A stretch of 64,000 bases of DNA from Flavobacterium limicola (lineage in GTDB: Bacteria; Bacteroidota; Bacteroidia; Flavobacteriales; Flavobacteriaceae): assembly GCF_003634755.1 (NCBI RefSeq), contig NZ_RBXA01000001.1, positions 868,001 through 932,000 on the forward strand. The letters are read 5' to 3'. Positions 44,333 to 55,603 of this stretch are shown here, one piece after another. Every line of letters starts with the position of its first letter. Positions within the stretch are counted from its first letter, which is position 1. A program made the translations under genes and the position numbers. The notes below the pieces were generated by a model. It did no database searches. It saw only the letters and a program-made list of their open reading frames with translations, and was not told the DNA's origin.

Positions 44333-45250
44333 ATTCAAAAATCTAAATACACTGAGTTCATTAAATCTGAAGCTAAACGCCTCGGTTTTTTGTCATGTGG
44401 TATTTCCAAAGCAGAGTTTTTGGAGCAAGAAGCGCCACGATTAGAAAACTGGTTGAATGAAAATAGAAACGGCCAAATGGCTTACATGGAAAACCATTTT
44501 GACAAACGTTTAAATCCAACGTTACTAGTTGATGATGCCAGAAGTGTCGTCTCGCTTCTGTTGAATTATTATCCGGAACAACTTCAAAATTCAGATGCTT
44601 ATAAAATCTCAAAATATGCTTACGGTGAAGATTACCATTTTGTGATTAAGGAAAAGTTGAAAGAATTTTTGTTTTCCATTCAGTCAACTATCGGGGAAGT
44701 TTCAGGACGTGCGTTTGTTGATTCTGCGCCGGTGCTCGATAAAGCTTGGGCTGCAAAAAGTGGTTTGGGCTGGATTGGGAAAAACAGTAATTTGTTGACT
44801 CAAAAGGTAGGTTCTTTTTACTTTATTGCGGAACTTATTATAGATTTAGATTTAGATTATGACAATGCTACTACGGATCATTGTGGTACTTGTACAGCTT
44901 GTATAGATGCTTGTCCAACGGAAGCAATTGTCGCACCTTATATTGTTGACGGTAGTAAATGCATTTCTTATTTTACTATAGAACTAAAAGAAAATATCCC
45001 ACAGGAAATGAATGGGAAATTTGACGATTGGGCCTTTGGTTGTGATGTTTGTCAAGATGTGTGTCCCTGGAATAAGTTTTCGAAACCACACAATGAACCT
45101 CTCTTTAATTCAAATTCAGAATTGCTTTCAATGTCCAAAAAAGATTGGAGAGAAATCACAGAAGAGACTTTTAAAGAAGTGTTTAAAAATTCGCCTCTGA
45201 AAAGAGCCAAGTTTCAAGGAATCAAAAGGAACATTGATTTTTTACAATAG
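44333..45250 (+). CDS. queG: Epoxyqueuosine reductase, non-standard start
   Basis: QueG reduces epoxyqueuosine to queuosine in tRNA, using a cobalamin cofactor and two 4Fe-4S clusters. The cluster motifs [14 protein letters not shown] and [10 protein letters not shown] are intact, and the rest of the protein matches the family. The frame continues upstream of the first TTG (44390) into conserved-looking residues [16 protein letters not shown], back to a stop at 44303. No ATG, GTG or TTG lies there; the natural start position holds ATA (44330) or ATT (44333). From ATT the protein has 305 residues, the normal length. ATT start is my choice; see findings. Confidence 0.85.
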
Positions 45251-45253
45251 ACG

Positions 45254-46282
45254 CTATTTTTTTTTAAAAGTAGATTCTCTTGCTATTACTTTTGTTTCGA
45301 GTTCTATAGTTCTAGGTGTAAAATGAATTTCTTTTTTGTGACAATTCATTTCTTCTAATAATAATTTAAAAGAAGTTACTCCCATTTCATGACTTGGTTG
45401 GTCAACTGTACTAAGTTTAGGAGTTAGTACTTGAGACATAAACCAATTACTAAAGCCTATTACGGCTACTTGTTCCGGAATTTTAATTCCTATATCATTA
45501 AAATAGGAAAGTACTCCTACAGCAACAAGATCTGTAATGGCAAATATTCCTTCAACATCAGAATGGTCAGCCATTATTTGTTTTGCAAAATCTATTCCCT
45601 CTTGAAAAGTTACTTTTTCACACGTATAGACTAGAGAAGCATCAAAGGGGATGTTATTCATTTCTAACGCTTTTTTATAACCAATAAAACGGTCAATGGC
45701 ATTTTGAGGATTTAAGGGGCCTCTTATATGAGCAATTTTTCGGTAGCCGTTATCTATTAAATGCTGAACCGCATTTCTGGCGGCAATTTGATCGTTAATA
45801 ACGACCTTAGAACTATGAATCAACTTTGCAATTTTGTCAAATTGCACAAACGGGATCTTACGTGCTATAATTTCCTTAAGATGGCTGTCATCATTAGATT
45901 CGTTAGAGAGAGAAATAATTATTCCATCTACTCTTTTATTAATTAGTAAAGCGACCTGTTTTTTTTCTAATTCTAACGATTCATTCGATTGTAGAATGAT
46001 AACTAGGTAGCCGTTTTTTTCAGCTTCAGCAACAATCCCATTTATTACATTTGAAAAAAAATGATGTACGATTTCGGGAATAATTAAGCCGATAGTTTTT
46101 GATTCTTTTGTTCTTAGATTGACAGCAAAAGAATTAGGGCTGTAGTTGAGTTTTTTTGCTAATGAAATTACCGCGTCTTTAGTTTTTAAACTAACGTCTG
46201 GATAGTCTTTTAATGCTTTCGAAACTGTGGTAATTGATATGCCTAGTTTTTCTGCAATTTCTTTAAGAGTAGCTTCTTTCAT
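45254..46282 (-). CDS. LacI/GalR-family regulator of the adjacent sugar locus
   Basis: The 342-residue protein has a LacI-type helix-turn-helix (TLKEIAEKLGISITTVSKAL, about 5-24), a hinge with SFAVNLRTKESKTIGLIIP, and a sugar-binding sensor domain ending in VARESTF-like residues (IARESTFKKK). It is divergent from the TonB receptor gene, with two strong palindromes between them, so it almost surely controls this locus and itself. The inducer is probably sucrose, fructose or a related fructoside, judged from neighbours only. The stop lies 3 bp from the convergent queG stop. Confidence 0.93.
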   Translation of the reverse strand: MKEATLKEIAEKLGISITTVSKALKDYPDVSLKTKDAVISLAKKLNYSPNSFAVNLRTKESKTIGLIIPEIVHHFFSNVINGIVAEAEKNGYLVIILQSNESLELEKKQVALLINKRVDGIIISLSNESNDDSHLKEIIARKIPFVQFDKIAKLIHSSKVVINDQIAARNAVQHLIDNGYRKIAHIRGPLNPQNAIDRFIGYKKALEMNNIPFDASLVYTCEKVTFQEGIDFAKQIMADHSDVEGIFAITDLVAVGVLSYFNDIGIKIPEQVAVIGFSNWFMSQVLTPKLSTVDQPSHEMGVTSFKLLLEEMNCHKKEIHFTPRTIELETKVIARESTFKKK

Positions 46283-46316: not shown

Positions 46317-46318
46317 AT

Positions 46319-46352
46319 CGAAAACGTTTTCGGTATTTCGAAAACGTTTTCG
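46319..46352. promoter_or_regulatory. Paired LacI-family operators
   Basis: CGAAAACGTTTTCG is a perfect 14-bp palindrome found twice, at 46319-46332 and 46339-46352. The central AACGTT with flanking CG halves is the classic LacI/GalR operator type. Centres are 20 bp apart, so both sites face the same side of the helix. They lie between the divergent regulator and receptor genes. Confidence 0.9.
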
Positions 46353-46387
46353 ATTGTGTTATTCATTATTTTATTTCTTTATAATTA

Positions 46388-46440: not shown

Positions 46441-49065
46441 ATGAAAAAACCTAATTTATTAATCAGGCAAATAGGCATGATTGTAGCTTTACTGCTATTT
46501 AATCTTTCTTTTGCACAAAATGCTACCGTAACAGGAGTGGTTTCGGATGTTAATGGAGCACCAATACCCGGTGTTAATATTTTGATTAAAGATTCGTCAA
46601 AGTCAGTTGTGACAGATATTGATGGAAAATATAATTTTTTAAATCTTCAAAATGGTACTTTTGACTTTATTGCTTCATACATTGGTTACAAAAATGTTGA
46701 GTTTAAAATTGATGTAAATGGAAATGTGATTAAAAATATTACATTAATCGAAGATACTAATGTGCTTGATGATGTTATAATTACTGGTGTAATTAATCCA
46801 AGAACAAAAATTAAATCGAGTGTTTCTATTACATCAATGAATACAAAGGAAATTGAGCAATCTGCACCAAGATCAACTGCTGAGATTTTTAGGACTATTC
46901 CAGGAATACGTTCAGAATCATCAGGAGGAGAAGGTAATTCCAATATTTCGGTCCGTGGGGTGCCAATATCATCTGGAGGTTCCAAATATTTACAAATTCA
47001 AGAAGATGGGCTTCCAGTTTTATTATTTGGAGATATTGCTTTTGCAACAGCCGATATCTTTACAAGGTTTGATGGGAACGTAGCCAGAATTGAAGCTATT
47101 CGTGGAGGCTCAGCTTCAACATTGTCTTCAAATTCTCCTGGAGGAATTATCAATTTTATTAGTAAAACAGGGAAAACTGAAGGAGGAACTTTGAGTACTA
47201 CTTTTGGGCTAGATTATGAAAACTTCAGAACAGATTTAGATTATGGGACTAAAATAGGTGATGGATTGTATTTTCATGTAGGTGGTTTTTACAGATCAGG
47301 TGAAGGTGTTAGAAAAACAGGATTTAATAGCAATAATGGCGGTCAAGTAAAATTCAATGTTACAAAAGAATTCGAAAAAGGATTAGTAACAGTTTATGCT
47401 AAATTTTTAAATGATAGAGCAGTAGCATATATGCCAATGCCTGTTCAGGTTTCTGGAACTAATGCAAATCCAAATTGGACAAGTGTAGATGGCTATGATG
47501 CTACACGAGGTGCTATGCAATCTATTTATTTAAACCATAATGTAGGACTTGGGACAGAAGGAAATGTAAGAAGAGAAAAAGTTGCTAATGGAATGCATCC
47601 TATTTCAAAATCCATAGGCGCAAATGCTACTTTTGATTTAGATAATAACTGGAAAGTTTCAGATAATTTACGTTACTCTGCAAACAGTGGTGGCTTTATA
47701 TCTCCTTTTCCTGCTGAATTGGGTACAGCTTCTGCTATCGCAAGTTCTTTTGGTGCGGGTGCAACGCTAAGTTATGCAAATGATGGGACTGCTTTTAATA
47801 CCCCTAATGGTTTAGTTGCTAGAGTTCATATGTTTGATACACAACTGAATGATATGAGTAATTTTATGAATGATTTGAGATTAACAAAAAAAATAGATAA
47901 TGTAGGAATCACTTTTGGGTTTTTCAAATCAATGCAAAATGTTTCAATGTCTTGGCTATGGAATTCTTACCTACAAGAAGTATCGGATACTAATCCTCGT
48001 TTAATTAATGTAACGGATGTTAATGGTAATCTCTTGTCAGAGAATGGCCTCTATGCTTATGGGACTCCTGCTTGGGGAAATTTAGCTAGAAATTACGACA
48101 CGCAGTATAATGTATCTGCGCCTTACGTAAATGTTTCATTTGATGCTTCTGAAAACCTTTCTTTTGAAGGTGGGGTACGATATGATAATGGAAAAGCCAC
48201 AGGTTCTTTTACCGGGGGGACAGCGACACAATATGACATCAATAATGATGGAGTATTATCTGCACCGGAAAACAATGTATTTGCTGTGAATACTGCTAAT
48301 GAAACTCCGGTTAATTATACTTACGACTATTTCTCTTACACGTTAGGTGGAAACTATTTGTTAAATGCGAAACAATCGTTATTTGCTAGAGTTAGTAGAG
48401 GCGCTTCTGCGAAGGCTGATAGAATTTTATTTAGCGGATTGGATTATTTAGACGGAAATAAAATCAATGCTCTTGACTTTTTAACGCAGACAGAAATTGG
48501 CTATAAACAAAAATTCGATAAAGGGTACCTTTATGCCACTGCCTTTAGTTCTAAAACAGATGAGCAAGCGGGTTATGAGGCTGGAGCAAATGTAATTAGA
48601 CAAAATAATTACAAATCTTTAGGATTAGAATTAGAGTCAGCGTATGATTTATCAGATAATTTGAACCTAAGAGGGTCTATGACGTATACGAAAGCAGAAA
48701 TTACATCCGGCACTGATGAAGGAAATGAGCCAAGAAGACAGCCTAAATTAATGTATGGTGTAATGCCAACGTTTAAATTTATGGATAGAAAAAATACATT
48801 AGGATTAAGTTTTATTGGGCAGACTAAAGCCTTTGCTCAAGATTCAAATCAACTCGTAATGAATGGTTTTGTAATTGTAAATGGTTTTGTTGAAGTTGGT
48901 TTGACAAAAGGGTTATCAGTAAATCTTTCTGGTAATAACATATTCAATACATTAGCAATTACGGAGTCAGAAGAAGGAAGTATAACGGAGAATACGGTAA
49001 ACTACGTAAGAGCAAGATCATTAACCGGAAGATCAATTTCTATGGCCTTGTCTTATAGATTTTAA
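46441..49065 (+). CDS. TonB-dependent outer-membrane receptor for a sugar
   Basis: The 874-residue protein has a signal peptide (about 1-25), a carboxypeptidase-regulatory-like beta domain (about 28-105, with GVVSDVNGAPIPGVNI), a plug domain (about 120-235, with RGVPISSGGS and IRGGSASTLSSNSPGGIINFI) and a 22-strand barrel that ends YRF. There is no SusD partner gene beside it. With the downstream transporter, glycosidase and kinase it probably imports a small sugar across the outer membrane using TonB energy. Plug and barrel look intact. Confidence 0.93.
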   Translation: MKKPNLLIRQIGMIVALLLFNLSFAQNATVTGVVSDVNGAPIPGVNILIKDSSKSVVTDIDGKYNFLNLQNGTFDFIASYIGYKNVEFKIDVNGNVIKNITLIEDTNVLDDVIITGVINPRTKIKSSVSITSMNTKEIEQSAPRSTAEIFRTIPGIRSESSGGEGNSNISVRGVPISSGGSKYLQIQEDGLPVLLFGDIAFATADIFTRFDGNVARIEAIRGGSASTLSSNSPGGIINFISKTGKTEGGTLSTTFGLDYENFRTDLDYGTKIGDGLYFHVGGFYRSGEGVRKTGFNSNNGGQVKFNVTKEFEKGLVTVYAKFLNDRAVAYMPMPVQVSGTNANPNWTSVDGYDATRGAMQSIYLNHNVGLGTEGNVRREKVANGMHPISKSIGANATFDLDNNWKVSDNLRYSANSGGFISPFPAELGTASAIASSFGAGATLSYANDGTAFNTPNGLVARVHMFDTQLNDMSNFMNDLRLTKKIDNVGITFGFFKSMQNVSMSWLWNSYLQEVSDTNPRLINVTDVNGNLLSENGLYAYGTPAWGNLARNYDTQYNVSAPYVNVSFDASENLSFEGGVRYDNGKATGSFTGGTATQYDINNDGVLSAPENNVFAVNTANETPVNYTYDYFSYTLGGNYLLNAKQSLFARVSRGASAKADRILFSGLDYLDGNKINALDFLTQTEIGYKQKFDKGYLYATAFSSKTDEQAGYEAGANVIRQNNYKSLGLELESAYDLSDNLNLRGSMTYTKAEITSGTDEGNEPRRQPKLMYGVMPTFKFMDRKNTLGLSFIGQTKAFAQDSNQLVMNGFVIVNGFVEVGLTKGLSVNLSGNNIFNTLAITESEEGSITENTVNYVRARSLTGRSISMALSYRF

Positions 49066-49096
49066 TAAAATGTTTCATGATTAGTTAATTGTTGGG

Positions 49097-49133
49097 CAAT
49101 TCCTATATTTTTAAATATAGGAGTTGTTTTTTT
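49097..49133 (+). terminator. Terminator inside the sugar operon
   Basis: CAATTCCTATATTT (49097-49110) pairs with AAATATAGGAGTTG (49113-49126), one G-T pair, with a two-base loop and then seven T. It lies between the receptor and transporter genes; with no clear promoter after it, it probably lowers, rather than stops, downstream expression. Confidence 0.85.
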
Positions 49134-49156
49134 AAAATTAAAAAAAGAATAGGAGC

Positions 49157-50533
49157 ATGTTTAAAAAGGTAAAACTCAATTTTTGGCAAATATGGAATAT
49201 GAATTTTGGGTTTTTCGGAATTCAATTCAGTTTCGGGTTGCAACAAAGTAACATGAGTGCGATTTATAAATATTTAGGAGCTGATGAAGGAAGTTTGCCT
49301 ATGTTATGGCTTGCAGGACCTATTACAGGTTTAATAATTCAGCCTATTGTAGGAGCGATTAGTGATGGCACCTGGTCGCCAAAATTTGGTCGCCGAAAAC
49401 CATTTTTCCTTATCGGAGCTTTAATATCAAGTTTTGCGTTGCTGGTCATGCCTTTTTCTAATTCTATTTTTATGGCTGCGAGTTTGCTATGGATTTTAGA
49501 TGCTGCAAATAATTTAGCCATGGAGCCTTATCGTGCTTTTGTAGCTGACAAATTAGATGAAAAACAACAATCATTAGGTTTTTTAATGCAGAGTTTCTTT
49601 ACAGGATTAGGTATTACATTGGCTAATTTTACACCTGCTATTTTAGTAGCATTAGGGGTTTTGGCAATTACGGATAAATTATCGAATGGGATTCCAACGT
49701 ATACTTATTGGGCTTTTTTCATTGGAGCATTTGCTTCTATTGTATCAGTTCTGATTTCAGTTTTTACAACAAAAGAATATCCGCCTACTGACGAGGAGTT
49801 AGCATTGATTAATGAAAAGAAAAAGCAAAATATTTTTAATACCGTTTTAGTTGACATTGTAAAGGCTTTCCAAACAATGCCCTTAACAATGAAACAATTA
49901 ATACCTGTTAAATTCTTTACTTGGTATGCTATGTTTTGTTATTGGCAATACATCACATCTACACTTTCAATATCTATTTACAATACCACAGATCAGGCAT
50001 CACAAGGGTTTTCTGAAGCACAATTGTTGACAGGTAGCTTAAATGGGACCTATAATATAATTTGTTTTATGGTTGCTTTTTTACTGGTTCCTTTAGCACT
50101 TAAAATTGGGGCAAAAGGAGTTCATTTTTTTGCTTTATTATTAGGCGGAATAGGTTTATTGAGTATTCCGTTTTTAAACAATGTAGATGTTCTATTTGTA
50201 ATGCACAATCCGTTTGGAGAAAACGTTGCAGTGACCACCATCTTTTTATACTCATTTGGTTTAGGGATTTCTTGGGCTTCAATGATGGCTATGCCTTATC
50301 AGCTTTTGGCTGGTTCTATTCCAAAAGATAAAACAGGCATTTATATGGGGATTTTTAATATGTTTATTGTAATACCAATGGCGATTCAAGTGTTGACAAT
50401 GCAATATTTTGTGTATGATTTATTAGGAAGGAATCCATTGAATGTGATTAAATTAGCGGGTGTTTTTTTAATTTTTGGGGCAATTTTCACTCTTTTTATC
50501 ACTGTTAAAAATAGAAAAGAAGCGATAGTATGA
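49157..50533 (+). CDS. MFS sugar transporter (SLC45/sucrose-type)
   Basis: The 458-residue inner-membrane protein has about twelve hydrophobic segments. The first cytoplasmic loop has FGRRKPF, the RxGRRKPF-type motif of SLC45, plant SUC and related sugar:proton symporters. An early PIVGAISDG segment also fits this group. It probably takes the sugar from the periplasm, after the TonB receptor, into the cell. The stop overlaps the next start by four bases (ATGA). Confidence 0.88.
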   Translation: MFKKVKLNFWQIWNMNFGFFGIQFSFGLQQSNMSAIYKYLGADEGSLPMLWLAGPITGLIIQPIVGAISDGTWSPKFGRRKPFFLIGALISSFALLVMPFSNSIFMAASLLWILDAANNLAMEPYRAFVADKLDEKQQSLGFLMQSFFTGLGITLANFTPAILVALGVLAITDKLSNGIPTYTYWAFFIGAFASIVSVLISVFTTKEYPPTDEELALINEKKKQNIFNTVLVDIVKAFQTMPLTMKQLIPVKFFTWYAMFCYWQYITSTLSISIYNTTDQASQGFSEAQLLTGSLNGTYNIICFMVAFLLVPLALKIGAKGVHFFALLLGGIGLLSIPFLNNVDVLFVMHNPFGENVAVTTIFLYSFGLGISWASMMAMPYQLLAGSIPKDKTGIYMGIFNMFIVIPMAIQVLTMQYFVYDLLGRNPLNVIKLAGVFLIFGAIFTLFITVKNRKEAIV

Positions 50534-51708
50534 TGAAAAATATAGATTATAAAAAAGCAATTGAATTATTGCAAAATGCTTCGTCTAAAGAAGGATTTTT
50601 AGCAAGCGCTCAAAACATTTCAAATTACAAAAGAGTTTGGGCTAGAGATGGAGTAATATGTGGTTTGGCAGCTTTAGCTTCAGCTGATGAAAAATTGATT
50701 GAGACCTTTGGGAACACATTAGAAACATTAGCAAAAAATCAGCATCATAATGGTACAATTCCCTCAAATGTAATGACAGATGGAGATGTTGTAGAAGTTA
50801 GTTATGGAGGTTTAGCTGGAAGGGTTGATGCAGTGACTTGGTTTATTATTGGTGCTTGTCAATACGCTTTTTATAAAAAGGACGAGGCATTTATTCAAAA
50901 ATATGATAGTAACATTCAAAAGTGTTTGCAGCTTTTAGAAGCATGGGAATTTAATAATAAACATTTGCTTTATGTACCTCTTTCTGGAAATTGGGCGGAT
51001 GAATACATAACGGATGGTTATGTATTATATGATCAATTATTGCGATTATGGGCTCTGAAAAGTTATAATTATTTTTGTAAAAGTGATTTGATTGCAAGTA
51101 AAATTGAACAAATAACAGAACAGTTAGTAATTAATTTTTGTCCTGATTCAGTAGGAGAGAAATACCATGAAAGGGCATACAAGGAAGCTAATATTCAAAA
51201 TTTTATGCCTTGTTCGTTTTCGCCAGCGGGTTATAAAATGCAGTTTGATGCTTTTGCAAATTCCTTAGCGCTACTTTTAAATATAGGGACAACTGCGCTT
51301 CAAGAAAATATTTTGTCATATTCTTTAGGTTTAAAAAACAAAATGCCATTAAAGTTATTACCCGCTTTCTGGCCGGCAATAAAAGAAAATGATGTAGACT
51401 GGAACTTGCTTAAGAATAATTATAAATACGAATTCAGGAACTTTCCAAACGAATTTCATAATGGTGGAAGTTGGTCAATGGTTAATGGGTTTTATGGACT
51501 TGCGTTATTGAATTCAACAAAAAAAGAAGAAGCTATTGAAATACTGGAAGCTATAAATGCTATTAATAAAATTGAGAATTATAGTTTTTATGAAAATTTC
51601 AACAGTAAAACCCAATTGCCTAATGGGGTTTCATATTGCGCATGGAGCGCAGCTGCAACCGTAATGTTGCATCAAAGTATTTATAGTGATTTTAAATATT
51701 TAGTTTAA
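50530..51708 (+). CDS. Glycoside hydrolase with alpha/alpha-barrel (amylo-alpha-1,6-glucosidase or GH100-like)
   Basis: The 392-residue protein has no signal peptide, so it acts in the cytoplasm. RVWARDG (about 34-40) and EFHNGGSWSMVNGF (about 317-330) are the conserved acid-bearing segments of alpha/alpha-barrel glycosidases. Databases usually name this group amylo-alpha-1,6-glucosidase. The HNGGSW segment also resembles GH100 neutral invertases. With a sucrose-type transporter before and a PfkB kinase after, intracellular sucrose hydrolysis is my preferred idea, but it is inference; glycogen debranching and other specificities remain possible. Confidence 0.72.
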   Translation: MMKNIDYKKAIELLQNASSKEGFLASAQNISNYKRVWARDGVICGLAALASADEKLIETFGNTLETLAKNQHHNGTIPSNVMTDGDVVEVSYGGLAGRVDAVTWFIIGACQYAFYKKDEAFIQKYDSNIQKCLQLLEAWEFNNKHLLYVPLSGNWADEYITDGYVLYDQLLRLWALKSYNYFCKSDLIASKIEQITEQLVINFCPDSVGEKYHERAYKEANIQNFMPCSFSPAGYKMQFDAFANSLALLLNIGTTALQENILSYSLGLKNKMPLKLLPAFWPAIKENDVDWNLLKNNYKYEFRNFPNEFHNGGSWSMVNGFYGLALLNSTKKEEAIEILEAINAINKIENYSFYENFNSKTQLPNGVSYCAWSAAATVMLHQSIYSDFKYLV

Positions 51709-51713
51709 AAAAA

Positions 51714-52640
51714 ATGAAAAAATCTATTGATATAATTTGTATTGGGGAAGTTTTAATTGATTTTATTGGTCATCAAATTGATACTTCAATAAATAGAACT
51801 AAAGATTTTCACCGATTTTTAGGTGGATCCCCTACAAATGTTGCTGTTAATGCAACAAGATTAGGCTTGAATTCAGTTTTAGTAGCCACTTGCGGTCAAG
51901 ATGGATTAGGAGAATATATTGTTCGTAAATTGAAGGCGAATAATGTTATTACTTCTCATGTAAAAAAAATTGATCATATGCCAACTTCGGTAATATTTGT
52001 CTCTAAATCTACGGGAACTCCTGATTTTATTCCATTTAGAGAAGCTGACTCTCAAATTGACCCGAGTCAAATTACAGATGATTTACTAGAAAGTGCTAAA
52101 ATTTTTCATACAACTTGTTTCGCATTAAGTAAAGATCCTGCTCGCACCACGATTCTTGAAAGTGCTAAAAGAGCGAAGCAATTGGGACTGAAAACAAGTA
52201 TTGATATTAATTTTTCGGAACGAATTTGGAATGATAGAGACGAAGCTAAATTGGTATTAAAAGAGTATTTAGCAACGGATCCTTTAGTGAAACTAAGTGA
52301 AGACGACTGCTATAGGTTGTTTTCAGAATCAAAAACGGAAGATTTTATTTTTGAATATTTTCATAATTTGGGCGCTTCAACTATTTGCTTGACAAAAGGG
52401 AAAGAAGGAGTAGTTTTATCAGACAAAAAATTTGGGCTTTTTCATCAAAAAGCAATTCCAGTTCTTGAGATAAAAGATGCCACAGGTGCAGGTGATGCTT
52501 TTTGGACAGGTTTTTTGTATGCACAGCTTTTGAATAAAAATTTTAATGATACTATTACTATAGCGCAAAAACTTGCAGTGCTGAAATTACAAAACGTTGG
52601 TAGGCTTCCTGCTGATATTGACATTAGTTCTTTTATATAA
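51714..52640 (+). CDS. PfkB-family sugar kinase, fructokinase-like
   Basis: The 308-residue protein is a ribokinase-fold kinase. GGSPTNVAVNATRLG (about 38-52) and the DATGAGDAFWTGFL signature near 256 with catalytic Asp are intact. Bacterial fructokinases share these regions. Two steps before it in the locus are a sugar transporter and a glycosidase, so it probably phosphorylates the freed fructose. It starts 5 bp after the glycosidase stop. Other PfkB substrates cannot be excluded from sequence alone. Confidence 0.88.
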   Translation: MKKSIDIICIGEVLIDFIGHQIDTSINRTKDFHRFLGGSPTNVAVNATRLGLNSVLVATCGQDGLGEYIVRKLKANNVITSHVKKIDHMPTSVIFVSKSTGTPDFIPFREADSQIDPSQITDDLLESAKIFHTTCFALSKDPARTTILESAKRAKQLGLKTSIDINFSERIWNDRDEAKLVLKEYLATDPLVKLSEDDCYRLFSESKTEDFIFEYFHNLGASTICLTKGKEGVVLSDKKFGLFHQKAIPVLEIKDATGAGDAFWTGFLYAQLLNKNFNDTITIAQKLAVLKLQNVGRLPADIDISSFI

Positions 52641-52735: not shown

Positions 52736-53161
52736 ATGACTGTAAATCAAATATTAAGCACAAAAGGGAAGGAAGTTTATTCCATACTTTCGACAAACAC
52801 TGTTTACGAAGCATTGACAGTGATGAGCGAAAAAAACATTGGGGCAATTCTTATTATTGAAGATGCTATCCTGAAAGGAATTTTGTCTGAAAGAGATTAT
52901 GCTCGAAAAATTGTTTTGAAAGCGAAAACTTCTAAGAAGGCCTTCGTTCATGAAATTATGGAAACTGATATAATCACTGTAAAACCATCAGATAATTTAG
53001 AATATTGCATGGAGTTAATGAGTACTAAAAGGGTAAGGCATTTGCCTGTTTTAGATAATGATATTGTAATTGGGATTATCTCTATAAGTGACGTGGTAAA
53101 AGCTATAATCGATATGCAAAAAGACACCATCCAACATTTAAATTCTTACATTACACAATAA
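52736..53161 (+). CDS. CBS-domain pair protein
   Basis: The 141-residue protein is little more than two CBS domains. The first ends in KGILSERDYARK and the second has VRHLPVLDNDIVIGIISISDVVKAI, the usual adenosyl-nucleotide-binding pattern. Such stand-alone pairs sense AMP, ATP or SAM and act on partner proteins, but the partner is unknown. It follows the sugar operon by 95 bp and has its own terminator. Confidence 0.92.
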   Translation: MTVNQILSTKGKEVYSILSTNTVYEALTVMSEKNIGAILIIEDAILKGILSERDYARKIVLKAKTSKKAFVHEIMETDIITVKPSDNLEYCMELMSTKRVRHLPVLDNDIVIGIISISDVVKAIIDMQKDTIQHLNSYITQ

Positions 53162-53320: not shown

Positions 53321-55603
53321 ATGAACAAAAATAGCAAAAGAAGAGAAGCATTATTATACCACGCAAAGCCTACTCCAGGTAAAATTCAAGTAGTTCCGAC
53401 TAAGAAATATGCAACACAAAGAGATTTGTCTTTGGCTTATTCTCCTGGCGTAGCTGAGCCGTGTTTAGAAATTGCGAAAGACGTAAACAACGTTTATAAA
53501 TATACCGCAAAAGGAAATTTAGTTGCTGTAATCACAAATGGAACTGCAGTTTTAGGATTGGGTGACATTGGTCCGGAAGCATCAAAACCGGTGATGGAAG
53601 GTAAAGGATTGTTGTTTAAAATTTTTGCTGATATTGATGTGTTTGATATCGAAATTGGAACAAAAGATATTGAAGAATTCATCCAGACGGTTAAAAATAT
53701 AGCGCCTACTTTTGGTGGAATTAACTTAGAAGATATTAAAGCACCAGAGTCTTTTGAAATTGAAAGACGATTGGTGGAAGAATTGAATATTCCTGTAATG
53801 CACGATGATCAGCATGGTACAGCCATCATATTGTCTGCAGCATTATTGAATGCTTTAGAATTAGCAGATAAAAAAGCAGAAGATGTGAAGTTAGTAGTTT
53901 CAGGAGCCGGTTCTGCAGCTCTTGCCTGTGCAGATTTGTATGTTTTGTTGGGGGTAAAAATAGAAAATATATTAATGTTCAACAGTAAAGGAGTCTTGAC
54001 TAAGGACAATGCCTCCTTGTCTGTTTTACAGCAAAAATATGCAAAAGACATAAAACCAATGAGTCTTGAAGAAGCATTAGTTAATGCTGATGTTTTCTTG
54101 GGATTGTCAACAGGAGATATTATGTCTCCGCAAATGCTATTGGGAATGGCTGATAATCCGATTGTTTTTGCCATGGCAAATCCTGATCCGGAAATAGACT
54201 ATAATCTTGCAGTTGCAACTCGTAAAGATGTAATCATGGCTACCGGTCGTTCGGATTATCCTAATCAGGTAAATAACGTTCTTGGATTTCCTTATATTTT
54301 TAGAGGTGCATTAGATGTGCGTGCAACAAAAATTAATGAAGCCATGAAGATGGCCGCCGTGAGAGCATTGGCCTCATTGACTAAAGAATCTGTTCCGGAA
54401 CAAGTAAATGTTGCTTATGGTGCGACAAAATTAAATTTTGGACGAGAATATATTATTCCTAAACCTTTTGACCCAAGATTAATAGCTATTGTTGCACCGG
54501 CTGTGGCCAAAGCAGCAATGGATTCCGGAGTTGCTTTGAATCCTATTATAGATTGGAAAAAGTACGAAGACGAACTTTTAGATCGTTTAGGAAATGATAA
54601 TAAAATGGTTCGTTTGATTGCCAATAGAGCTAAGATGGATCCTAAAAGAATTGTTTTTGCAGAGGCGGATCATTTAGATGTTCTTAAAGCAGCACAAATT
54701 GTGTTCGAAGAAGGAATAGGTTTTCCAATTTTATTAGGGAACAAAGAAATTATTTTAGAATTAAAAGAAGAAATTGGTTTTGATGCCGATGTTCCAATCA
54801 TTGATCCAAAAATTAAAGAAGAAGAGTCCAGAAGAAATAGATTTGCTACAACCTACTGGTCATCCAGACAAAGACGAGGGATATCCTTGTTAGATGCTCA
54901 AAAATTAATGCGTGAAAGAAACTATTTTGCGGCCATGATGGTCAATGAAGGAGAGGCAGACGCTTTAGTAACGGGGCATTCCAGAAGTTACCCATCTGTT
55001 GTGAAACCAATGTTGCAACTTATCGAAAAAGCGCCGGGAGCATCCATTGTTGCTACTGCAAATATTATGATGACGGCTCGTGGGCCAATGTTTTTGTCAG
55101 ATACTGCCATAAACATTAATCCTTCAGCAGACGATTTAGCTAAAATTGCGATTATGACTGCAAAAACTGCAAAAATGTTTGGTGTTGAGCCCGTAATTGC
55201 AATGATATCATATTCTAATTTTGGTTCTTCAACAAATGATAGTGCTAGTAAAGTTAGAGAAGCGGTAACGTATTTGCATAAAAATTATCCAGAGATAGTT
55301 ATTGATGGCGAACTTCAGGCTGATTTTGCACTGAACCCAGAAATGCTAAAAGAAAAATTTCCTTTTTCTAAATTAGCGGGAAAAAAAGTAAACACATTGA
55401 TTTTTCCAAATCTTGAATCCGCAAATATTACTTATAAGCTTTTGAAAGAATTGAATAAGGTAGACTCAATAGGACCTATAATGTTAGGAATGGGAAAACC
55501 AGTTCATATATTTCAATTGGGTGCCAGTGTGGAGGAAATGGTTAATATGGCAGCTATTGCCGTGATAGATGCTCAAGAAAAAGACAAGAAAATAATAAAA
55601 TAA
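53321..55603 (+). CDS. maeB: NADP-dependent malic enzyme with phosphotransacetylase-like domain
   Basis: MaeB converts malate to pyruvate and CO2, making NADPH. The 760-residue protein has the malic enzyme half (about 1-425) with TNGTAVLGLGDIG, MHDDQHGTAI and the GAGSAA nucleotide loop, and a C-terminal half (about 430-755) like phosphotransacetylase. In MaeB the second half serves in regulation by acetyl-CoA and does not catalyse transfer. Length and order match E. coli MaeB. Confidence 0.96.
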   Translation: MNKNSKRREALLYHAKPTPGKIQVVPTKKYATQRDLSLAYSPGVAEPCLEIAKDVNNVYKYTAKGNLVAVITNGTAVLGLGDIGPEASKPVMEGKGLLFKIFADIDVFDIEIGTKDIEEFIQTVKNIAPTFGGINLEDIKAPESFEIERRLVEELNIPVMHDDQHGTAIILSAALLNALELADKKAEDVKLVVSGAGSAALACADLYVLLGVKIENILMFNSKGVLTKDNASLSVLQQKYAKDIKPMSLEEALVNADVFLGLSTGDIMSPQMLLGMADNPIVFAMANPDPEIDYNLAVATRKDVIMATGRSDYPNQVNNVLGFPYIFRGALDVRATKINEAMKMAAVRALASLTKESVPEQVNVAYGATKLNFGREYIIPKPFDPRLIAIVAPAVAKAAMDSGVALNPIIDWKKYEDELLDRLGNDNKMVRLIANRAKMDPKRIVFAEADHLDVLKAAQIVFEEGIGFPILLGNKEIILELKEEIGFDADVPIIDPKIKEEESRRNRFATTYWSSRQRRGISLLDAQKLMRERNYFAAMMVNEGEADALVTGHSRSYPSVVKPMLQLIEKAPGASIVATANIMMTARGPMFLSDTAININPSADDLAKIAIMTAKTAKMFGVEPVIAMISYSNFGSSTNDSASKVREAVTYLHKNYPEIVIDGELQADFALNPEMLKEKFPFSKLAGKKVNTLIFPNLESANITYKLLKELNKVDSIGPIMLGMGKPVHIFQLGASVEEMVNMAAIAVIDAQEKDKKIIK

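Follow-up and report, generated by a model that had tools for sequence, protein, structure and literature searches.

The locus studied here lies in a 64,000-nucleotide stretch of the 3.3-Mb Flavobacterium limicola genome G000 (contig NZ_RBXA01000001.1, positions 868,001 to 932,000; hereafter the window). Its five genes quite probably form a LacI-controlled sucrose scavenging operon with a divergent GH100-like invertase as the cleaving enzyme. They encode a LacI-family repressor, a TonB-dependent receptor (TBDR), a transporter, a glycosidase, and a PfkB-family kinase, and each was confirmed in the open reading frame list and by Pfam domains. An earlier sequence-only reading had placed these genes at 46441-52640 of the window and had proposed a full route for an oligosaccharide, probably sucrose, with a logic like that of the Xanthomonas sux system. 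The interval was correct for the receptor, transporter, glycosidase, and kinase genes, all four on the plus strand; the lacI-type gene lies just outside it, at 45254-46282 on the minus strand, divergent from the operon (Pfam LacI, 1.3e-11; Peripla_BP_3, 8.6e-29). The proposed sucrose route is well supported by a GH100-like enzyme, a kinase nearest to fructokinase, and an operator that stands beside a GH32 gene in two relatives.

The computed evidence comprises gene content and synteny, the fold of the glycosidase, the alignment of its catalytic residues, and two operators that are conserved in relatives and occur at a single place in the genome. Several observations favor sucrose. The enzyme gene is accompanied by the fructokinase-type kinase gene in 49/49 homologous loci fetched, and the LacI, TBDR, transporter, enzyme, and kinase genes occur together in 33 of them; the gene grouping is thus more than chance. 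A GH32 beta-fructosidase gene adjoins the same operator in two (G302 and G303) of the three larger clusters read in relatives, and no GH32 exceeded the cut-off in the window genome (best 19.5 bits vs. 22.1). A separate locus of the window genome has a maltodextrin-type gene set and carries no such operator. As for the enzyme, other Flavobacteriaceae carry a related GH100-like domain as a fusion with a domain of the sucrose-6-phosphate phosphatase type.

In the proposed mechanism, sucrose would pass the outer membrane via the TBDR, with no need for SusD, and a GPH-type symporter would move it intact over the inner membrane. The cytoplasmic GH100-like invertase would cleave it to glucose and fructose, and the PfkB kinase would convert fructose to fructose 6-phosphate. 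When no sugar is present, the LacI protein would occupy the pair of tandem operators in the gap that separates the lacI-type and receptor genes, which are spaced by two helical turns, and sucrose or a product would free it from them. Downstream of the receptor gene, a hairpin probably keeps the receptor transcript more abundant than the transcripts of the cytoplasmic genes. If this is true, heterotrophic bacteria use a distant GH100 relative to scavenge nutrients, encoded next to a transporter that is related to plant sucrose carriers.

The glycosidase, kinase, and transporter

GH100 comprises the cytosolic invertases of plants and cyanobacteria. The glycosidase (50530-51708, plus strand), a predicted cytoplasmic invertase with no signal-like start, passed the Pfam model Glyco_hydro_100 (PF12899; 1.7e-12, 47.2 bits vs. 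a gathering score of 23.6). The match consists of two stretches, the best of which covers the C-terminal half. Pfam gave no GH13 (Alpha-amylase), GH31, GH65, or GH97 assignment. The nearest named match was a protein of Flavobacterium sinopsychrotolerans (97%). A broad profile of the window enzyme and 27 homologues, 16 of these at 40% identity or less, recovered Anabaena InvA (4.4e-21) and InvB (8.3e-21) and plant CINV1 (2.5e-16). Weaker matches were an amylo-alpha-1,6-glucosidase (1.7e-7) and a GH63 glucosylglycerate hydrolase (4e-7). A pentatricopeptide repeat protein (4wsl, 1.7e-9) was discarded as a repeat artefact, with no stretch passing.

The AlphaFold2 model of the glycosidase (pLDDT 90, pTM 0.92) is an (alpha/alpha)6 barrel, as the sequence-only reading had proposed. 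The first 28 rows of a Foldseek search with this model were all GH100 invertase chains. In VIA-align, the GH100 structures (InvA, InvB, and CINV) scored Z 38.6-41.5, with InvA highest (Z 41.5, rmsd 2.5, 368 residues), and the next family scored 34.5. The catalytic acids of InvA, given as Asp188 and Glu414 in the available text of the structural study (PMC6995568), align with D157 and E355 in the broad profile alignment, with an index offset of one for both. The two residues are invariant across the 28 homologues and are the predicted catalytic acids of the glycosidase. Together, profile, model, and alignment point to a GH100-like enzyme that would hydrolyze sucrose.

The kinase (51714-52640, plus strand) is probably a fructokinase. 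Against the PDB, it matched 3hj6, named fructokinase, at 4.4e-56, and the second match reached only 1.4e-26. Its gene starts 5 bases after the glycosidase gene, whose start overlaps the end of the transporter gene by 4 bases.

The transporter (49157-50533, plus strand; Pfam MFS_1) is a sugar transporter of the GPH/SLC45 type within the major facilitator superfamily (MFS). Plant SUC1 (5e-17) and SLC45A4 (1.5e-9) were among its PDB matches, in agreement with the SLC45-type assignment made earlier. Two SUC1 residues named in the available text of PMC10281868, Asp152 and Gln50, align with D115 and Q29 of the window transporter. Equivalents are also present in the MFS protein of the separate SusCD/GH13/GH65 locus of the same genome. 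The transporter was dropped as a sucrose indicator, since that protein matches SUC1 even better (1.9e-20).

Operators and locus architectures

The 49 homologous loci show two architectures. The first, with LacI, TBDR, MFS, enzyme, and PfkB, accounts for the 33 loci mentioned above; PfkB precedes the enzyme in two. The second, ASPIC-PAP2-MFS-enzyme-PfkB-MFS-GH37, was found in 12 (L043-L050, L052, L054, L082, and L087), whose fetched flanks contain neither this LacI nor the TBDR. The remaining four are interrupted by contig ends. A LacI protein 72-82% identical to that of the window was found in all 11 second-architecture genomes searched (all but that of L054); the copy in G308 was flagged with one stop.

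Two identical palindromes, TCGAAAACGTTTTCG, lie in the gap between the lacI-type and TBDR genes of the window, with starts 20 bp apart (operator 1, ATCGAAAACGTTTTCGGT, 46317-46334; operator 2, TTCGAAAACGTTTTCGAT, 46337-46354). The strict pattern, TCGNAAACGTTTNCG, occurs at two places in the window genome, both in this gap; the chance expectation estimated from composition was 0.07. A longer pattern with a mismatch gave two weaker extra places, no excess over the control, and one-mismatch matches in this genome numbered 3 and 4 vs. 6 and 8 for the control. In 22 genomes, the strict pattern matched 39 times forward and 29 times in reverse (reversed control, 16 and 20). The operator count by itself was rejected as evidence; position carries the case.

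In the 11 first-architecture genomes, 20 of the 21 distinct strict sites, mapped by coordinates, fall in the LacI-TBDR gap. The sole other site (G319:C2:112840), before an E1-dehydrogenase gene, is probably a chance occurrence. The gaps of the 33 loci comprised 29 scored by script and those of L065, L066, L074, and L081, which had a partial receptor match and whose places were checked. Two strict sites 20-21 bp apart were present in 30 gaps, one strict site in L074 and L084, and only the core in L051. The 783 kb scanned contained nine other operator matches, each of them directly preceding the MFS gene in a second-architecture locus (9/12 loci; no match at this position in L047, L052, and L082).

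Second-architecture loci share with the window a close LacI homologue, the same operator, and the same MFS-enzyme-PfkB core. They differ in that SusC/SusD, FG-GAP/ASPIC, and PAP2 genes replace the SusD-less TBDR, and in extra GH37, GH65, GH13, and sometimes GH32 genes. Their 11 genomes hold 31 distinct operator sites, and the surroundings were read for G299 (3), G302 (3), G303 (3 of 4), and G307 (1 of 4). The gene order in G302 is LacI, LacI, GH13, PfkB, sugar porter, GH32, operator, GH65, operator, SusC, SusD, and ASPIC, and the MFS gene of L046 is preceded by a third operator. The G299 cluster is similar, with three LacI copies and without GH32. In G303, two LacI genes, other genes, three GH13 genes, PfkB, porter, and GH32 lie below two operators. 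Reading extended far enough to show the SusCD pair in two clusters, G299 and G302. In L093, L094, and L135, the stretch between SusCD and the MFS-enzyme-PfkB core codes for FG-GAP/ASPIC repeat proteins and for one protein of the PAP2 superfamily. The three tandem LacI paralogues of G299 (L136:2236-5780) are 62-82% identical to the window LacI; G302 and G303 have two.

The core also seems to keep its place. In the window, the lacI-type gene adjoins queG (44390-45250), as it does in G302 and G299. On the other side, the locus is followed by a CBS-domain gene (52736-53161) and a malic enzyme-type gene (53321-55603), both, like queG, outside the locus. In the more distant L097 (enzyme 51%), queG and the malic enzyme gene flank just three genes, those for MFS, enzyme, and PfkB. 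To explain the front-end types on the enzyme tree, a minimum of four switches between architectures is needed. This number is indicative only: 25 of the 50 inner branches were well supported, and the chosen outgroup did not form one clade. L064, on a cut contig, was excluded beforehand, L086 was kept out of the count, and L056 and L061, whose contigs end before LacI, were counted as first architecture. These comparisons suggest that the cytoplasmic core is stable and stays at one site under one type of regulator, and that the outer-membrane parts can be exchanged. Since SusD-less and SusCD loci have regulator, operator, and core in common, the relatives allow the contribution of SusD to be compared.

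In the family, 59 of 299 genomes gave a PF12899 match, a count that also takes in distant clades such as the phosphatase fusions. The close enzyme branch is patchy: at E 1e-20 it was present in 15 of the 395 Bacteroidota genomes, 3 of which belong to the same genus as the window, out of at least 23 genomes of that genus. For a wider proposal, the evidence seems to us evenly balanced. It holds that a divergent GH100 branch, patchy in Bacteroidota, is the cytoplasmic sucrose-cleaving enzyme of scavenging loci. The transporter-invertase-fructokinase core would stay at one site (queG/malic enzyme) with one LacI type and operator, and SusD-less TBDR and SusCD would have been swapped several times.

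Two further GH100-like groups were seen. In L022 (100-2001 and 2018-3298; also L096), the sucrose-6-phosphate phosphatase-type/GH100-like fusion is encoded beside a GT4 gene with sucrose-synthase-like matches; fusion and GT4 are possibly a sucrose-making and -cleaving pair. A third clade (L095:6411-8713), which shares about 25% identity with the window enzyme, also lies beside a GT4 glycosyltransferase gene.

Substrate alternatives and the TonB receptor

Several results weigh against sucrose, or against sucrose as the only substrate. The glycosidase is only 16-18% identical to known GH100 enzymes, and a narrow profile of 40 close sequences gave weaker matches (InvB 1.6e-7, InvA 8.4e-7, CINV1 5e-4). 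Arg430, discussed for InvB and conserved in plant enzymes according to the available text of PMC6995568, has no counterpart, as the segment is missing in the profile alignment; no structural substitute was searched for. We therefore use the term GH100-like rather than calling the enzyme a plain GH100 member. The kinase passed no NCBIfam cut-off. Its best score was for the 5-dehydro-2-deoxygluconokinase domain (177 bits vs. a cut-off of 300), and fructokinase PRK09434 gave 129 bits vs. 450. The transporter scored below the curated GPH_sucrose cut-off (102 bits vs. 511), and by sequence its class cannot tell sucrose from maltose. Finally, extra GH37, GH65, and GH13 genes stand under the operator in relatives, as does GH97 in two genomes; thus, the inducer may not be sucrose alone.

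The last point bears on the view that the locus serves one or more other non-reducing alpha-glucosides (trehalose, kojibiose-type sugars, sucrose-derived oligosaccharides, glucosylglycerol, or glucosylglycerate) through a GH100-fold glucosidase of shifted specificity. In the second architecture, the GH37 trehalase matched its Pfam model at 8.2e-134, the GH65 of G302 exceeds the kojibiose hydrolase cut-off, and its GH13 lies just above that of the alpha,alpha-phosphotrehalase subfamily (543 vs. 535). The GH63 glucosylglycerate hydrolase match of the broad profile and Z values of 33-34.5 to GH63/GH133-type folds fit this view as well. However, GH100 is closest in both sequence and fold, the kinase present at all 49 loci suits a fructose-releasing substrate, and the window locus has none of the extra glycoside hydrolase genes. 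We regard this alternative as unlikely. The extra operator copies before GH97 were seen in G303 and G307 (L138:3975 and L137:4119).

The sucrose reading also assigns a role to the TBDR (46441-49065, plus strand), which has an N-terminal extension and a signal-like start (Pfam Plug, 3.7e-14; barrel, 2e-13; CarbopepD_reg_2, 4.3e-18). It scored far under the SusC/RagA model cut-off (98 bits vs. 368). The one SusD model searched, SusD_RagB (PF07980), had six matches in the genome, the nearest on the contig about 263 kb away. Hence, the earlier description of the locus as SusD-less stands. As no SusD is predicted beside a SusC-class receptor, the locus does not appear to be a SusC/SusD polysaccharide utilization locus. 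The best NCBIfam score of the receptor was for a siderophore receptor model, below the cut-off, and it had FhuA-type PDB matches, which would suit an unrelated importer placed by accident in front of a sucrose operon. Such an accident is very improbable, because LacI, operators, and receptor co-occur in 33/49 loci and because in the second architecture this operator is followed by a SusCD pair.

The separate locus of the window genome (L098; contig C1, 125000-144000) reads SusC-SusD-GH13/LacI-MFS-HAD-GH65, a gene set for maltodextrin-type sugars. Its LacI and MFS proteins are each 40% identical to the window counterparts; therefore, the two loci share paralogous parts. That resemblance would fit a locus for maltodextrins such as Caulobacter mal or Bacteroidetes sus, a proposal that is scarcely credible given that L098 already holds such a set without the operator, that Pfam places the enzyme in none of GH13, GH31, GH65, and GH97, and that a fructokinase would have no role.

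Comparison with known loci and the receptor-transporter gap

Judged by predicted functions, the locus combines what loci of the sux and Scr kind have: a TBDR without SusD, an inner-membrane transporter, a LacI-type repressor, and a sucrose enzyme. The following comparisons rest on gene roles as given in the available parts of the cited texts. The Xanthomonas campestris sux CUT locus (suxA, suxB, suxC, and suxR; PMC1790865) likewise has a TBDR, an inner-membrane transporter, an intracellular sucrose enzyme, and a repressor, and no SusD. It differs in using an amylosucrase (GH13), whereas a GH100-like enzyme and a kinase gene within the locus are found here. The Shewanella Scr pathway (ScrT-II, Omp-Scr, ScrP, ScrK, and ScrR-II; PMC2996990) is closer because it includes a fructokinase. 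It shares all five roles, namely LacI regulator, TBDR, sugar permease, sucrose enzyme, and fructokinase, but has a sucrose phosphorylase in place of the GH100-like invertase, another gene order, and probably another operator. Neither amylosucrase nor sucrose phosphorylase is indicated in the window enzyme, in which Pfam found no Alpha-amylase domain.

The enzyme had been proposed as an independent solution in the sequence-only reading. This claim was not upheld, since a change of enzyme inside such loci is already published: sucrose phosphorylase in Shewanella (PMC2996990), and 'more classical pathways' in other sux-like loci (PMC1790865), as the available texts put it. What is new here is the cleaving enzyme and the exchange of the outer-membrane part among relatives; the overall design is already known. 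Compared with InvA and InvB of Anabaena and plant CINV, the glycosidase shares the fold, both catalytic acids, and the Pfam family above the cut-off. It is unlike them in its low identity, in lacking an Arg430 equivalent, and in being encoded in an operon with importer genes.

At least 11 orthologous groups of LacI regulators of sucrose genes are listed in the available text of PMC4052901, in whose main text the terms 'Bacteroidetes' and 'Flavobacter' are absent. FjDexUL of F. johnsoniae has a characterized kojibiose hydrolase, but it is described as a dextran locus with a different gene set in the available text of PMC10316084. Term searches of the available texts of PMC8626586 and PMC8537180 found nothing about sucrose gene clusters. 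In a paper collection with few subscription journals, searches joining GH100 or invertase to sucrose in Bacteroidota or Flavobacterium found no paper, and in a looser search on neutral invertases of Bacteroidetes none of the titles listed describes a locus of this kind.

The 91-nucleotide gap between the receptor and transporter genes contains a hairpin followed by a U-rich stretch (49094-49129, plus strand). The gap folds at -20 kcal/mol (z -3.96), and 1 of 200 shuffles was equally good. A strong hairpin was predicted, in folds run without shuffles, in all 25 relatives with gaps below 160 nucleotides. The hairpin is possibly a partial terminator or an mRNA stabilizer. In many relatives the stem, CAATTCCT...AGGAATTG, is identical, with paired changes, and in others an unrelated hairpin occupies that place. 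In L067, the gap encodes a small protein that has a glutaredoxin domain and a signal-like start (L067:6356-6685), and longer receptor-transporter gaps occur in nine other loci.

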